Of a stretch of 64,000 nucleotides of DNA, positions 37,364 to 54,242 are shown in pieces. The stretch is from Apibacter adventoris (GTDB lineage Bacteria > Bacteroidota > Bacteroidia > Flavobacteriales > Weeksellaceae): NCBI RefSeq assembly GCF_002964975.1, contig NZ_PSZM01000043.1, forward strand, positions 1 through 64,000, written 5' to 3'. The notes under the pieces are model-generated. The model worked only from the letters and a program-made list of their open reading frames with translations. It made no database searches and had not been told where the DNA came from. The position numbers were made by a program, and so were the translations under genes. Each line of letters starts with the position of its first letter. Within the stretch, counting starts at the first letter, position 1.

Positions 37364-37711
37364 CTACCCTAATATCTCTTTACGATGAAATATTCCCCAC
37401 TCTTTCAGTTCATTAATAACTTTACATAGCGTATGCCCATGGTCCGTTAATGAATATTCTACTGAGGGAGGAAAAGTCTCTAAAACTTTACGGTCTATAA
37501 GTTTATCACTTTCAAGTTCCTTAAGGTCTTTCGACAAACTCTTATCTGTTAGCCCCGGTATATCCCTTATTATCTCTTTAAAACGTTTACTTTCGTAAAA
37601 TAAAGAAATTATAATAGGAATTTTCCATTTACCTTGCAATACATCTAAAGCATCCCTTACGGGAATCATTATATGTTGGCAATCATAACTTTTTATTTCT
37701 TTTCCCATCAT
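37364..37711 (-). CDS. HxlR family transcriptional regulator, 115 aa
   Basis: Winged-helix regulator: 'ALDVLQGKWKIPIIISLFYE', 'IPGLTDKSLSKDLKELESDK' and 'VEYSLTDHGHTLCKVI' are the typical HxlR elements. Cys-11 just before the first helix (SYDCQHIMIP) sits where redox-sensing members such as YodB and HypR have their reactive cysteine. Two adjacent ATGs (37711 and 37708) are possible starts. Divergent from an oxidoreductase gene with a 126-base shared region, which suggests direct local control. Confidence 0.9.
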   Translation of the reverse strand: MMGKEIKSYDCQHIMIPVRDALDVLQGKWKIPIIISLFYESKRFKEIIRDIPGLTDKSLSKDLKELESDKLIDRKVLETFPPSVEYSLTDHGHTLCKVINELKEWGIFHRKEILG

Positions 37712-37738
37712 TTTTAAATTAAAAAAATTTATAGCATC

Positions 37739-37778
37739 TTACTTTCTTTAAGGTTAGTGCTTTCTCAGATGAAAGTAA
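37739..37778. promoter_or_regulatory. Inverted repeat between HxlR and oxidoreductase genes
   Basis: TTACTTTC (37739-37746) and GAAAGTAA (37771-37778) are perfect inverted half-sites separated by 24 bases, located between the divergent starts. Candidate HxlR operator; spacing is wide, so the assignment is tentative. Confidence 0.35.
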
Positions 37779-37837
37779 CACATTTTCTATAGTTAATATA
37801 ATTATTTTTACAAATATATAATTTAATATGTACCTAT

Positions 37838-38896
37838 ATGAAAAGATGGATTTTGAGAAAAAATGCAAAAAGTATAGACGACCTCATTCAAGAAGAGGTA
37901 GCCATACCTGAACCTAAAACAGGAGAAGTACGAATAAAAAATTTTGCTGTATCACTCAACTTTCGCGACATAGTTGTAATGAAAGGAACAAAAGGCATGA
38001 GTATAACACGAGACATCATCCCATGCTCAGATGGAGCCGGAGAAATTGATGCTTTGGGTGATGGTGTGAAAAATTGGAAAGTTGGAGACAAAGTCGTCAC
38101 CCAATGTTATCGAGGCTGGACAGATGGTAAAATAACTGCAAACATTGATTTAGGTTTGGGATCTAATGAGGTAGATGGAACCTTAGCTGAATTTTTTATT
38201 GTTAAATCGGATCAGATAATTAGTGCGCCCAAAACACTAAACTATTTAGAATCTTCTACCCTTCCCTGTGCAGGGACTACTGCTTGGTCGGCTATCCAAG
38301 GTAATCGTCCCTATCTTTTTCCATTACAAAAAGGAGAAAAAGTGTTAATATTGGGTACAGGTGGAGTTTCTACTATGGTCATGGCTATTGCTGTAGGGGC
38401 AGGAGCGCAGGTATATTGCACAACCAGTCAAGAAAATAAAATTGAAACACTAAAATCGATGGGAATAAAAGATGTAATCAATTACCGTTTAGATAAACAT
38501 TGGGGAGACACTATATATAAAAAAACACAGGGTGTCGACCTTGTAGTTAATACAGTTGGCTTAGCGGCAATTAACTCATCCATTAGGGCTCTGAATTTCG
38601 GAGGAAGAATGTCTATGGTCGGGGCAATGGACGATACAACTGAGGCATTTACCGAATCCTATCTGATGATGAGAAAAAATAATATCCTTTTTGGGGTTCT
38701 CACTGCCAGCACCGAGGCTTTTAAAGATTATATTCATTTCCTTGATGAGAAAAAAATAAAACCTTATATACAACAAATTTATGATTTTAACAACGCAAAA
38801 GAAGCTTTTAAAACAGCATCCTATTCTAAAAACTTAGGTAAAATTGTAATTCGGATCAAATCAACTATAAAAAATAATATTATGCATCAGCGATAA
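37838..38896 (+). CDS. Zinc-free MDR-family oxidoreductase (quinone reductase-like), 352 aa
   Basis: Medium-chain dehydrogenase/reductase. The GroES-like N-terminal part ('EVRIKNFAVSLNFRDIVVMKG', 'DGAGEIDALGDGVKNWKVGD') lacks the catalytic Cys/His and structural Cys zinc ligands. The Rossmann part has 'KVLILGTGGVSTMVMAIAVGAGA' and 'GVDLVVNTVGLAAINSSI'. This fits NADPH:quinone oxidoreductase-type enzymes. Paired divergently with an HxlR regulator, a pattern known for thiol/quinone stress responses. Substrate is inferred only. Confidence 0.85.
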   Translation: MKRWILRKNAKSIDDLIQEEVAIPEPKTGEVRIKNFAVSLNFRDIVVMKGTKGMSITRDIIPCSDGAGEIDALGDGVKNWKVGDKVVTQCYRGWTDGKITANIDLGLGSNEVDGTLAEFFIVKSDQIISAPKTLNYLESSTLPCAGTTAWSAIQGNRPYLFPLQKGEKVLILGTGGVSTMVMAIAVGAGAQVYCTTSQENKIETLKSMGIKDVINYRLDKHWGDTIYKKTQGVDLVVNTVGLAAINSSIRALNFGGRMSMVGAMDDTTEAFTESYLMMRKNNILFGVLTASTEAFKDYIHFLDEKKIKPYIQQIYDFNNAKEAFKTASYSKNLGKIVIRIKSTIKNNIMHQR

Positions 38897-39042: not shown

Positions 39043-39055
39043 TTCTATTTTGGAG

Positions 39056-39128
39056 TGACTCCGAAGGGGGTCGAACCCTTGACCCACTGATTAAGAGTCA
39101 GTTGCTCTACCAACTGAGCTACGGAGCC
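39056..39128 (-). tRNA. tRNA-Lys (anticodon CTT)
   Basis: Cloverleaf with acceptor GGCTCCG/CGGAGTC, D arm TAGCTCAGTTGGTAGAGC, anticodon loop CTCTTAA and T arm GGGTTCGACCC. CCA is not encoded. Its own terminator follows. Confidence 0.96.
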
Positions 39129-39674
39129 GTAAAAATAAATAGTCTAGATATTAAACTCAAACCATAGTTAGTATCCTAAGCTGATTTTATATCCTAATTA
39201 AATAAATAATAACAAATTTTTAAATACCTCCTTTCCAAATTTATGAAGGCTAATCTGTCCTTTTTAGACAGTTTTCTATTTGTATATTTTTAATATGTGC
39301 AAATATATAAATTCTCAACTCAAATTGATTAACTTTATGTAATAAATTTAAGCTTTTAATATATCTTTACAAATGTTATGATAGGATTAAATATACTTGA
39401 ATACCTAGATTAGGGTAAAAGTATGACTCATTTATTGCGATGAAAAGAAATTCTTTATTTGCAGTAATGATAACACACTTCAAACAAGACTTTTCAAAAA
39501 CTGTAGATTATTCAATTTTAGTATTATTCAAATTGAATTGTTAAGTAAAGTATACGAAAACTTTCTTTTCAAAACTGATGTAGAGCTGTGAAGTGGTAAA
39601 TTAATATCTAAATACAGGCTGTACAAAAGTTAATATAGTTTGAGAATAAATAGGTGGAATATATATTAAAATAC
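39129..39674. other. AT-rich region between tRNA-Lys and HXXEE genes
   Basis: About 545 bases with no open frame I can support. A minus-strand -7-like TATATTTG is at 39300-39307. It may hold eroded sequence of the accessory region. Confidence 0.5.
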
Positions 39675-40319
39675 TTATTTACGTGGTTCTTTAAATCGGT
39701 TCATTTCATCTTTAGAAAATGCGTAAGGTGAATTTATATCTTCAAAAGTCTTACTGATGATGATTCGCACACCTACTATATACCATACTATCATAATCAA
39801 AGTACCTAGTACCCAATCCCATATAGTCACCATATCGTTTATAACAATATAATGAACATAAACAATCATTATCGGTACATGTCCAAGCAGAACGGCTGCT
39901 AAACCGGCATTATAAAACCTTTTTAAAAGTATGTTATTATAAATACCATGCATAATCAGTTGAGCAACCCCTCCAAAAAGTATAGGGGCTAGTCCGAACC
40001 AGATGGCATTAGGCCAAATTATAGGTGGCACATACAGCACTATGGCTGAAAGCCAATTTGTCATTAGTGCCGACATTCTATTTAATGGATAACGATCGGG
40101 AGCAGGACTGTTCTTCATGGCAAACATGGTGTTTGCAAATTTAGGAAATCCACCAGGAAGTCTGAATTCTTCGAAAACATGTAGGTTAATAACTGCAAAA
40201 TTGAGTACAGCAAGCCCTTGCAAAAGGGACATATCTTTCCAAAAAATAATGGTTATAAATAGCACTATTACTCCGACTATACCATTGATATTGTACCAAT
40301 TTTTTAATAAAAATTTCAT
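39675..40319 (-). CDS. HXXEE domain membrane protein 2, 214 aa
   Basis: Integral membrane protein with about six hydrophobic segments. The family motif is HVFEEFRLPGG, with His-47, Glu-50 and Glu-51 near the start of the second helix; these residues could bind metal. It is clearly homologous to the gene just upstream (shared MKF...NWY start, 'EE..PGG', 'A.WLGLG', 'HGI..N', 'YNPGLA/YNAGLA', 'WDW..G'). Nineteen bases separate the two genes. No biochemical function is known for the family. Confidence 0.82.
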   Translation of the reverse strand: MKFLLKNWYNINGIVGVIVLFITIIFWKDMSLLQGLAVLNFAVINLHVFEEFRLPGGFPKFANTMFAMKNSPAPDRYPLNRMSALMTNWLSAIVLYVPPIIWPNAIWFGLAPILFGGVAQLIMHGIYNNILLKRFYNAGLAAVLLGHVPIMIVYVHYIVINDMVTIWDWVLGTLIMIVWYIVGVRIIISKTFEDINSPYAFSKDEMNRFKEPRK

Positions 40320-40338
40320 AATATTTCAGTTTTTAAGG

Positions 40339-40998
40339 TTATTTATTTTTTGAAAAGGAAGCAAACTTTTGTACTTTATTACTCATTTCAACCTGCCATT
40401 CAGATATAGGATAAAGTGTATCTTTATTTTTGAGAAATTGTACAGGCAAAATGGTTGTTAATAAAGTCATGAAAATAAAGGCTATTGCTCCGAAAAACCA
40501 ATCCCAATCATTGACAAGTTTATTATTTATAATGAAAACCATGTAATAGATGCTTATCGGAACAAACAGAAATACAACAGATGCCAGCCCCGGATTATAC
40601 CAAGTCTTCATGCTTTTGTTCATCTGAATACCATGCCCGATGAGCTGAAACAGATTGAAGAACATTGTACCTAATCCCAGCCAGATAGCTTGCGGGAAAA
40701 TAATAGCGGCAATATAAATCAAATAAGCTAGATTATTTACAATCATAGCTGATTGCATGTTGCCGGGATAGCATCTATAATCTGTTTTCTCTCCAAAGTT
40801 TCCTCTGTTTATGACTACAGGCCCACCGCCCGGAAATACATATTCTTCGAACTGGTGAACAAGTAATGCCATAAAGCTGTACATCAGGATTGTTTGTATC
40901 GGGTTTAACAAACTATATCCAAAAAATCCTATAAAAAACGACAAGGCGATAAATACGATAATTGTTAGTTTGTACCAATTGTTAATGTAGAATTTCAT
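40339..40998 (-). CDS. HXXEE domain membrane protein 1, 219 aa
   Basis: Paralogue of the following gene, with about six hydrophobic segments and the motif HQFEEYVFPGGGP (His-48, Glu-51, Glu-52). 'WLGLGTMFFNLFQLIGHGIQ' and 'YNPGLASVVFLFVPIS' are further shared blocks. Starts 107 bases after the Crp/Fnr gene on the same strand, behind its own predicted promoter and palindromic site. The two paralogues may form a hetero-oligomer. Function unknown. Confidence 0.82.
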   Translation of the reverse strand: MKFYINNWYKLTIIVFIALSFFIGFFGYSLLNPIQTILMYSFMALLVHQFEEYVFPGGGPVVINRGNFGEKTDYRCYPGNMQSAMIVNNLAYLIYIAAIIFPQAIWLGLGTMFFNLFQLIGHGIQMNKSMKTWYNPGLASVVFLFVPISIYYMVFIINNKLVNDWDWFFGAIAFIFMTLLTTILPVQFLKNKDTLYPISEWQVEMSNKVQKFASFSKNK

Positions 40999-41041
40999 AA
41001 CGGTTAATTTTATATTACGTTTATTGTTTAATTCTGTAATA

Positions 41042-41087
41042 CAAAATTAGAGTCAGGAAATGAGAATTGTCTTAAATTAATTTAAGA
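41042..41087 (-). promoter_or_regulatory. Promoter with upstream palindrome for the HXXEE pair
   Basis: On the minus strand TAATTTTG (41042-41049) matches the -7 box. The perfect palindrome TCTTAAATTAATTTAAGA (41070-41087) is centred about 40 bases upstream of the expected transcription start, where a -33 box is missing. That is the classic position for a Crp/Fnr-type activator. Confidence 0.5.
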
Positions 41088-41105
41088 AAGAATGAAATCG
41101 AAAAA

Positions 41106-41699
41106 TTATTTCTCAGCGATTTTACGTTTCAGATTGCTTAACCAGATAGGTGTAACCCCCATGAAATTAGCAATATCCTTCGACCGGAATCTTTGGAATA
41201 AAAAACCATATCTCTTCAGCAGCCAGCACAAGAAATCTTCACTGGAAAGTCCTAATAAATGATTCTGAATTTGATTCACATTCGAAAGGTATTGAATGCT
41301 AGTTTGAAAAACAAAACGTGCAAATGCATGGTCTTTATTTATCCATTTCAGCCCGAAAGAACTGTCCAGTTCCAATACAGTCATATCTTCGTTTGATTTT
41401 AGTAGAAAAGTAACTAGTGAATCTTTGCTATCAATATACATATTCCCGACCATAGGCATAAAATCTTCGGTGTGAAACATAACTGCTCTTTCTTCTCCGT
41501 TTGGATTTATAATAAAACGAATACAACTTCCTTTTATAGTATAATAAATCTTTTGCTGTTTCTCGCCTTCGTAAACAAAAGTTGCTCCTTTCGGCAATTC
41601 AAATATATTTCCATCTTCAAGCAAAGATTCTTTAAATAACGGATCGATATCCATCGGTAATCGCCGGACAAATTCATTAATTAACTTTTTTGTATCCAT
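41106..41699 (-). CDS. Crp/Fnr family transcriptional regulator, ~197 aa
   Basis: N-terminal cyclic-nucleotide-binding fold ('FELPKGATFVYEGEKQQKIYYTI', 'NGEERAVMFHTEDF') and a C-terminal helix-turn-helix ('FRSKDIANFMGVTPIWLSNL'). It resembles the Bacteroidota group whose sensor domain lacks the residues needed for cAMP, so the signal is unknown. An earlier Met would add six residues (to 41717). Upstream of and co-oriented with two HXXEE genes, which it probably regulates. Confidence 0.88.
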   Translation of the reverse strand: MDTKKLINEFVRRLPMDIDPLFKESLLEDGNIFELPKGATFVYEGEKQQKIYYTIKGSCIRFIINPNGEERAVMFHTEDFMPMVGNMYIDSKDSLVTFLLKSNEDMTVLELDSSFGLKWINKDHAFARFVFQTSIQYLSNVNQIQNHLLGLSSEDFLCWLLKRYGFLFQRFRSKDIANFMGVTPIWLSNLKRKIAEK

Positions 41700-41717
41700 T
41701 ATTTTGTTGATTTTCAC

Positions 41718-42389
41718 TAATTATCAAATATAGAAAATATAGAGCAGTTTAAGTATTTATCGGCAATTTTTTGCTTATTTTTTTGTCCGCTCAAGCTCAT
41801 TGAAAAAAGAAACGGATTCAAGATTGAGTCTGTTAACTTACTTTTATTTATTATGTTCTATTAAGTGTTTCAGTATTATTTTTTTTATCAGTTTCAATTC
41901 CTAATAAGATATTCTAGATCTATTCGGATAATACATAACCATGTTTGTGTAAATGGTTATGATAAAGTTCAATTATTTTTACTTTGTGGGCTTTCAGAAT
42001 CTGATTGGTATTATTCGCTTCCTATCCTAGTCTAATGCTACTTCCCCATTTACTGTTCCACTGTTTTGGGGAGACTGTTATTCTGATATTAAATTGTACC
42101 TTGTCTAACATTTATAGTAATTCGTCACATAAACGAAATTAAACCTTTGCCGCCTTTTCTGGTTTTGTGCAAATAAAATAAAACTGAAAAATATTGCTTT
42201 CATAATCTTTTTGTTTTTGGCATGTGAAATTAAATTTTGCATAACAAAACACGGGAGACATTTCGCTACTAATTTGCAACAAATTAACAACTTACATTCT
42301 AATTGGATACTATTTCAATTACTCTTTGGTAGACGTCGAATTACAGTTGTATGATTACATCAACCTGCTACTTGTTCCAAAATAGGGAA
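41718..42389. other. Non-coding AT-rich region between Crp gene and tRNA-Lys pair
   Basis: About 670 bases. The only open frame (minus strand, 42105-42290) has an implausible composition. I see no RNA gene; probably degenerate sequence. Confidence 0.5.
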
Positions 42390-42390
42390 A

Positions 42391-42430
42391 TTAAAAAATC
42401 CCCTAAAATAGTCATTTAGAGGATTTTGTT
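42391..42430 (-). terminator. Terminator of the tRNA-Lys(TTT) pair
   Basis: On the minus strand an imperfect stem (AAAATCCTCTAAAT with TTTTAGGGGATTTT) is followed by six T residues, downstream of the tandem tRNAs. Confidence 0.7.
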
Positions 42431-42476
42431 TTTCTTTTATTGCCAGAATTGTGTTTGTATGTTTCTGACCTTTCAG

Positions 42477-42549
42477 TGACCTGGCTGGGGCTCGAACCCA
42501 GGACCCCAACATTAAAAGTGTTGTGCTCTACCAACTGAGCTACCAGGTC
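42477..42549 (-). tRNA. tRNA-Lys (anticodon TTT), second copy transcribed
   Basis: Acceptor GACCTGG/CCAGGTC, anticodon stem CAACA/TGTTG with loop CTTTTAA, T arm CTGGGTTCGAGCCCCAG. CCA is not encoded. Identical to the copy at 42592-42664. Confidence 0.96.
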
Positions 42550-42591
42550 TTTAAACAATTTTAATTAATATTTACATTATTAAATATTCAG

Positions 42592-42664
42592 TGACCTGGC
42601 TGGGGCTCGAACCCAGGACCCCAACATTAAAAGTGTTGTGCTCTACCAACTGAGCTACCAGGTC
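42592..42664 (-). tRNA. tRNA-Lys (anticodon TTT), first copy transcribed
   Basis: Identical in sequence to the neighbouring tRNA 115 bases away. Closest to the consensus promoter at 42711-42741, so both are probably made from one precursor. Confidence 0.96.
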
Positions 42665-45854: not shown

Positions 45855-45874
45855 TAATTTTGTATTTAATAATT

Positions 45875-45920
45875 AAAAGGTTCATTTAAGAATAAAATTT
45901 TATTCTTAAATGAACCTTTT
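45875..45920. terminator. 46-base perfect palindrome, probable terminator
   Basis: Arms 45875-45897 and 45898-45920 are exact reverse complements with no spacer (start AAAAGGTTCATTTAAG, end CTTAAATGAACCTTTT). It sits between the PspC gene and the acyltransferase gene, both minus strand, and the minus-strand side ends in TTTTAATT. Probably ends the padR-pspC transcript. Confidence 0.65.
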
Positions 45921-45961
45921 ACAAATGTATATATTTTTAAATTATTTAATTAAAACTGTTA

Positions 45962-54198: not shown

Positions 54199-54242
54199 TA
54201 TATAAAAAAGCTTTTAGTTTAAACTAAAAGCTTTTTTATATA
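54199..54242. terminator. 44-base perfect palindrome, bidirectional terminator
   Basis: Perfect palindrome centred between 54220 and 54221 (core CTTTTAGTTTAAACTAAAAG, flanked by A6G and CT6). It lies between the convergent pncB and glcU genes and has T-runs in both directions. Confidence 0.8.

Follow-up and report, generated by a model that had tools for sequence, protein, structure and literature searches.

A 64,000-nucleotide stretch of the Apibacter adventoris genome (hereafter the window) contains a regulator gene and two membrane-protein genes that we read, at a probability of roughly 0.55, as an acquired, effector-inducible pair of membrane acyl-amide hydrolases under class II activation by a Crp/Fnr-type protein. 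Comparison with other genomes supports the position of the operator, the co-occurrence of the pair and its acquisition. We infer activation, co-transcription, catalysis, the class of substrate and an effector: in a cassette that was acquired horizontally and regulates itself, the Crp/Fnr-type protein would sense a small effector, bind a palindrome centred at -41.5 and activate, in class II fashion, a promoter with a -7 box and without a -33 box, turning on both membrane-protein genes (hx1 and hx2) as one transcript. By kinship with the acylase MucF, their products would hydrolyse the acyl-amide bond of a lipophilic compound through a conserved H-x-x-E-E motif, a second histidine and a Y-x-P-G loop, working together by forming a hetero-oligomer or by attacking two related substrates, and the most plausible purpose would be the destruction of an N-acylated antibiotic or signal made by a neighbour. 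If so, what was an obscure gene pair becomes an inducible enzyme system open to testing, for which the operator, a predicted start and candidate catalytic residues can be named.

The three genes named in a preliminary description of this DNA, a Crp/Fnr regulator and two HXXEE membrane proteins, are present, all on the minus strand in the order crp, hx1, hx2 (Table 1). The crp start is most likely the ATG at 41699 and not the GTG at 41717, because the proteins of relatives begin there.

Table 1. Features of the cassette, in window coordinates.
Feature	Position	Strand	Details
Crp/Fnr-superfamily regulator gene (crp)	41106..41699	-	197 aa; recognition-helix region FMGVTPIWLSNLKRK
hx1, HXXEE membrane protein	40339..40998	-	219 aa; PF13787 67.5 bits
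hx2, hx1 paralogue	39675..40319	-	214 aa; PF13787 52.8 bits; 19 bp downstream of hx1
Likely operator, perfect 18-bp palindrome	41070..41087	.	T CTTAA ATTAAT TTAAG A (5-6-5); centre 41078.5
-7 box TAATTTTG	41042..41049	-	end exactly 37 bp downstream of palindrome centre
Predicted transcription start	41037	-	inferred from -7 box position
Cassette segment, read as insertion	39129..42475	.	between tRNA-Lys(ctt) 39055-39128 and tRNA-Lys(ttt) 42476-42549

Regulator, palindrome and predicted promoter

As a single sequence the regulator scored 18.4 bits against Pfam cNMP_binding, under the cut-off of 27.5. A profile of 16 relatives matched PDB entry 3dn7 over the full length (3e-62) together with FNR and CAP chains, HTH_Crp_2 matched 5 of these 16 relatives, and through the 16-row profile the protein has both the cNMP-like sensor domain and the C-terminal helix-turn-helix of the Crp/Fnr superfamily. 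FNR proper carries a set of cysteines for an iron-sulphur cluster; the window regulator, with two cysteines in 197 residues, does not have this set, and an iron-sulphur cluster is therefore probably not its effector. Its closest relatives among 147 family genomes share 38% (L049) and 35% (L050) identity. Searches of PADLOC, which covers known anti-phage defence systems, returned weak matches of the regulator to PycTIR and TIR-effector models over approximately 40–60 residues.

The 18-base palindrome in the preliminary description, TCTTAAATTAATTTAAGA, is exact and has no other exact copy in the 2.75-Mb genome. Sites with up to three mismatches numbered 30 genome-wide, itself included, against 29 for a backward control, and five of the 29 other sites (L070–L074) were examined and showed no -7 box at the window's spacing on either strand. 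Going by composition, the chance of an 18-bp palindrome in the 107-bp spacer is about 0.0017; a 64-kb stretch should contain about 0.7 palindromes of at least 18 bp on average, and four others lie in the window, so the palindrome alone is not decisive and its position carries the argument. AT-rich perfect palindromes of 48 bp (45874-45921) and 44 bp (54199-54242) lie elsewhere in the window. The expected number of 0.7 would allow the palindrome to be a chance AT-rich inverted repeat, or it could be the stem of a crp terminator, but no terminator-like site was called there, the same core (TTAAATTAATTTAA) lies at the same place, the end of the crp gene, in two other genera (L049 and L050, before an alpha/beta hydrolase gene, identified by Pfam for L050), and the spacing to the -7 box recurs across related loci, all of which make a chance repeat or terminator highly improbable.

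Class II activators of E. coli bind operators centred at -41.5. In the window the palindrome centre lies 37 bp upstream of the end of the -7 box (offset 37) and 80 bp before the hx1 ATG. The sigma-A -7 box of Flavobacterium psychrophilum, TAnnTTTG, spans -12 to -5 according to the available text of PMC9723704, and with this spacing carried over, the start would fall at 41037 and the operator centre at -41.5. In sequence geometry, and for this predicted start, the promoter is of the class II type; the earlier placement of the palindrome about 40 bases before the start of the HXXEE pair accordingly holds for the predicted transcript and not for the hx1 ATG. Neither TTTG nor TTG was read from the sequence near -33, in agreement with the -33 box having been described as missing, and the promoter looks activator-dependent for that reason. 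A sigma-70 scan gave 12 sites against 13 expected by shuffle.

A regulator that binds the palindrome to repress, with release by the effector inducing hx1-hx2, appears improbable. The site does overlap the -33 region, so that a protein sitting on it could stand in the way of polymerase, and several hx1 relatives adjoin regulators of the TetR family, most of which are repressors; against this stand the lack of a -33 box, which makes the promoter look activator-dependent, and the -41.5 centre before unlike targets, which is the signature of class II activators.

Offset 37 and half-sites in related Crp/Fnr loci

Class II activation, the preferred reading, gains most from the loci of related regulators. 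Fifteen promoters picked for a palindrome behind a Crp/Fnr gene had it at offset 37 in 14 cases, the other (L093) being at 61. The discovery set comprised 40 loci (39 relatives and the window), in which all occurrences of nAnnTTTG between 60 bp ahead of the crp stop and 300 bp beyond it counted as candidates, and 16-bp stretches centred 24 to 60 bp upstream were scored for perfect 5-bp arms (5-6-5). Such arms were found at offset 37 in 17 of 55 candidates and in 10 of 1966 at the 36 other offsets; when at least 7 of 8 pairs were required and the window was excluded, 17 of 39 loci had a site at 37, the sole other offset with sites was 50 (2), and upstream of crp there was one, at offset 57. No offset-37 site with at least 4 of 5 arm pairs was present in 18 of the 40 discovery loci, including some with helices like those of site-bearing loci (FTLSR in L076, ISLSR in L078 and ESLSR in several).

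Several discovery loci are closely related and offset 37 was first noticed on the 15 loci picked for palindromes, so that the discovery counts are not independent; a held-out test was run for this reason. The held-out loci were fetched later with the offset fixed beforehand, 30 loci per search among the matches listed; four that repeated earlier ones (L129, L130, L149 and L173) had been removed in advance. In the first order (27 loci among the matches listed) perfect arms occurred in 6 of 32 candidates at offset 37 against 6 of 1133 elsewhere (one-sided Fisher 2e-7, ignoring relatedness), and in a more distant order (29 loci among the matches listed) in 2 of 41 against 9 of 1445 (one-sided Fisher 0.035, ignoring relatedness). 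Upstream of crp, the first held-out group gave 1 of 22 at offset 37 and 2 of 792 elsewhere; 7-of-8 palindromes in the second group numbered one at offset 37 and three elsewhere. The offset rule thus appears strong near the window clade and weak in the second held-out group. No statement of a fixed-offset rule was found in the open-access literature searched, including the available parts of PMC9723704 and PMC12040651. The comparison across related Crp/Fnr loci makes the operator reading a strong one, and the class II-type operator with dedicated control that had been proposed for the window is supported in that its predicted position is kept in relatives. A fixed offset would also be a simple rule for predicting the operators, and hence the targets, of the phylum's local Crp/Fnr regulators, and it is checkable against published start-site maps.

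Offset-37 sites with at least 4 of 5 arm pairs were present in 38 loci (22 of 40 in the discovery set and 16 of 56 held out), and their half-sites were compared with the recognition helices, a pairing that was read by eye, applies to loci in which a site was found and includes close relatives. ETLSR helices went with TTGA half-sites in 8 of 8 loci (L085, L092, L106, L138, L143, L179, L185 and L188; one arm of L185 is TGTGA, and a second site listed for L188 does not fit the class), EYLS(E/Q) helices with TTAA in 13 of 13, (V/I/P)SLSR helices with TTAAC in 7 of 7 (one arm of L182 differs) and (I/V)WLSN helices with TTAAA in 3 of 3, namely the window, L049 and L050. Seven loci fell outside these classes (L080, L083, L084, L150, L151, L162 and L169); the sites of L150 and L169 look like chance and that of L151 has mixed arms. 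In loci with a site, then, the half-sites in most cases go with the recognition helix, which speaks for the neighbouring regulator as the protein that reads the palindrome. L106 has a second Crp/Fnr gene directly before an HXXEE gene, with CTTGAGTTCAGTCAAT at offset 37 (4 of 5 arm pairs), and this Crp/Fnr protein had no BLAST match to the window regulator at E 0.05. In five further loci (L051, L053, L058, L064 and L091) a Crp/Fnr gene is followed by CTTAAAC(CA/TG)GTTTAAG and a carboxymuconolactone-decarboxylase-like gene (Pfam for L051, by eye for the others), an arrangement that is its own regulator-target unit.

The HXXEE pair and its candidate activity

Both membrane proteins exceeded the PF13787 (HXXEE) cut-off of 25 bits, and they share 38% identity over 179 residues. 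Relatives in Staphylococcus and Necropsobacter were 51–58% identical to hx1 and 54–60% identical to hx2. A 32-row tree placed the five hx1 rows in one clade (98/97) and the three hx2 rows in another (98/95), the latter holding the hx2 of Staphylococcus and Necropsobacter; in rumen Bacteroidales a sister of hx1 is followed by a second HXXEE protein. The treatment of the two paralogues as a unit is thereby borne out, since hx1 and hx2 co-occur in other phyla. Staphylococcus loci L005 and L006 have hx1 and a TetR gene, with no hx2 within the stretch examined. Rumen Bacteroidales loci L012 (1423-2049) and L011 (3760-4386) carry three HXXEE genes, sisters of hx1 and hx2, and two AraC-type matches.

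In each of the 14 loci examined hx1 has a regulator gene next to it (TetR in 5, AraC in 9), a count in which L003 and L004 give the same matches and the hx1 of L019 was matched over 69 residues only. A conserved pairing of Crp/Fnr with HXXEE genes, on which the preliminary description had staked its reading, did not emerge: close hx1 relatives adjoin TetR or AraC genes instead, and in a neighbourhood survey of the HXXEE matches listed, made partly by eye, Crp/Fnr stood directly before HXXEE in the window and L106 alone. Stand-alone long-type HXXEE genes mostly had no adjoining regulator (by eye, among the matches listed), L106 (Crp/Fnr) and L046 (TetR) being exceptions.

The label ‘uncharacterised’ for this family is out of date, because MucF of Streptococcus mutans is described as an HXXEE-motif acylase that deacylates reutericyclin (available text of PMC10161427 and PMC9112991). 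As reported in the accessible parts of PMC10161427, MucF35 and MucF140 deacylated reutericyclin, and so did each of 16 other homologues, which were chosen from sequences with at least 50% identity to MucF35, the product of a 0.5-kb gene. The conserved residues of hx1 are H48, E51, E52, H122, Y134, P136 and G137. Across a chosen alignment of 11 long and 9 short HXXEE proteins, with L040, L036 and MucF itself outside it, H48, E51, E52, H122 and P147 were kept in 20 of 20 rows, Y134 in 19, G137 in 18 and P136 in 17, so that the histidine and two glutamates of the motif of MucF-type deacylases, and a second histidine, occur in every long and short row. Among 26 long-type rows (alignment A1) H48, G57, H122 and G137 were invariant and E51, E52, N88 and Y134 nearly so, L040 and L036 departing at E51/E52.

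The AlphaFold2 model of hx1 is all-helical (pLDDT 95.9). A Foldseek search of PDB had no hit under E 0.8, VIA-align reached at most Z 5.6, with generic seven-helix receptors as the partners, a sequence profile had no PDB match up to E 1, and no PADLOC family matched hx1 or hx2 at E 0.01. The pair could instead be a membrane transporter, immunity or signalling pair and not an enzyme, as a multi-helix membrane model and the lack of any report of activity for long-type HXXEE proteins in the literature searched would suit; we consider this doubtful, since the His/Glu/Glu/His set is common to short-type HXXEE proteins, which are MucF's type by gene length, and the gene that follows related Crp genes encodes an alpha/beta hydrolase. 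The hydrolase reading of hx1 and hx2 is a reasoned one by analogy with MucF, and on that analogy they are probably enzymes cutting fatty acyl amides. A metal or redox role, suggested earlier through stress phenotypes, was rejected, with nothing found that points to either and no supporting neighbour or residue seen at the locus.

Probable acquisition, wider meaning and comparison with known systems

HXXEE matches were found in none of 8 congeners and in 5 of 296 family genomes, the window's included. Six congeners have the tRNA-Lys genes and aroK together without the cassette: tRNA-Lys(ctt) and tRNA-Lys(ttt) are 38–45 bp apart in 5 of the 6 stretches, as against 3.35 kb in the window, the sixth has tRNA-Leu(gag) at that place, and crp, hx1 and hx2 were found in none of the six. 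The genes to the left of the array in the window (HxlR-like, oxidoreductase and others) likewise did not turn up in these six stretches; as this flank is not syntenic, it is the tRNA gene order that carries the insertion reading. The comparison supports the cassette as probably acquired. A 20-bp direct repeat at the segment ends is part of the tRNA genes and was therefore rejected as an attachment site. At 37364-38896, between tRNA-Leu(gag) and tRNA-Lys(ctt), lie a MarR/HxlR-like regulator gene and, in divergent orientation, a quinone-oxidoreductase/alcohol-dehydrogenase-like gene, neither of which reached its curated cut-off. In congener stretch L128 tRNA-Leu(gag) directly adjoins tRNA-Lys(ttt), and for this reason the array may be a hot spot where two cargoes have inserted. 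At 42476-42664 the tRNA-Lys(ttt) gene is duplicated in tandem, with similar flanks.

More broadly, and tentatively, with the odds leaning somewhat against so wide a proposal, paired HXXEE proteins might be a mobile two-subunit membrane amidohydrolase found in several phyla, placed under any fitting local sensor (here a Crp/Fnr activator) and directed against neighbours' N-acylated antibiotics or signals, with the -41.5 site and its helix-tracking half-sites serving as a general operator key for the phylum's local Crp/Fnr activators.

Among the systems comparable with the window, the pairs of Staphylococcus pettenkoferi (L004; L003 is alike) and Necropsobacter rosorum (L015) likewise have orthologous hx1 and hx2 nearby and a local regulator, although this is a TetR gene lying between or divergent from them and not a Crp/Fnr gene. 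Necropsobacter further differs in a CrtC/lipocalin-9-like gene between hx1 and hx2 (L015:4690-5628), possibly a hint at a lipid or isoprenoid substrate. MucF, according to the available text, resembles the window proteins in its annotated HXXEE domain, its HXXEE motif, its membrane location and a gene near transcription regulators (mucG and mucH, of TetR type), whereas it is short (0.5-kb gene) and the one HXXEE protein of the muc cluster, in contrast to the two long (about 215 aa), divergent paralogues with a Crp/Fnr regulator seen here. Crp/Fnr genes of relatives with neighbouring targets (alpha/beta hydrolase, carboxymuconolactone-decarboxylase-like, DoxX-like and NmrA-like) repeat the window's order of regulator, offset-37 palindrome and target, while differing in half-sites and targets. 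The class II promoters of E. coli CRP and FNR are alike in the -41.5 centre and in two 5-bp half-sites with a 6-bp spacer; unlike them, the window has a -7 box of the TAnnTTTG type, another half-site and a two-cysteine regulator.
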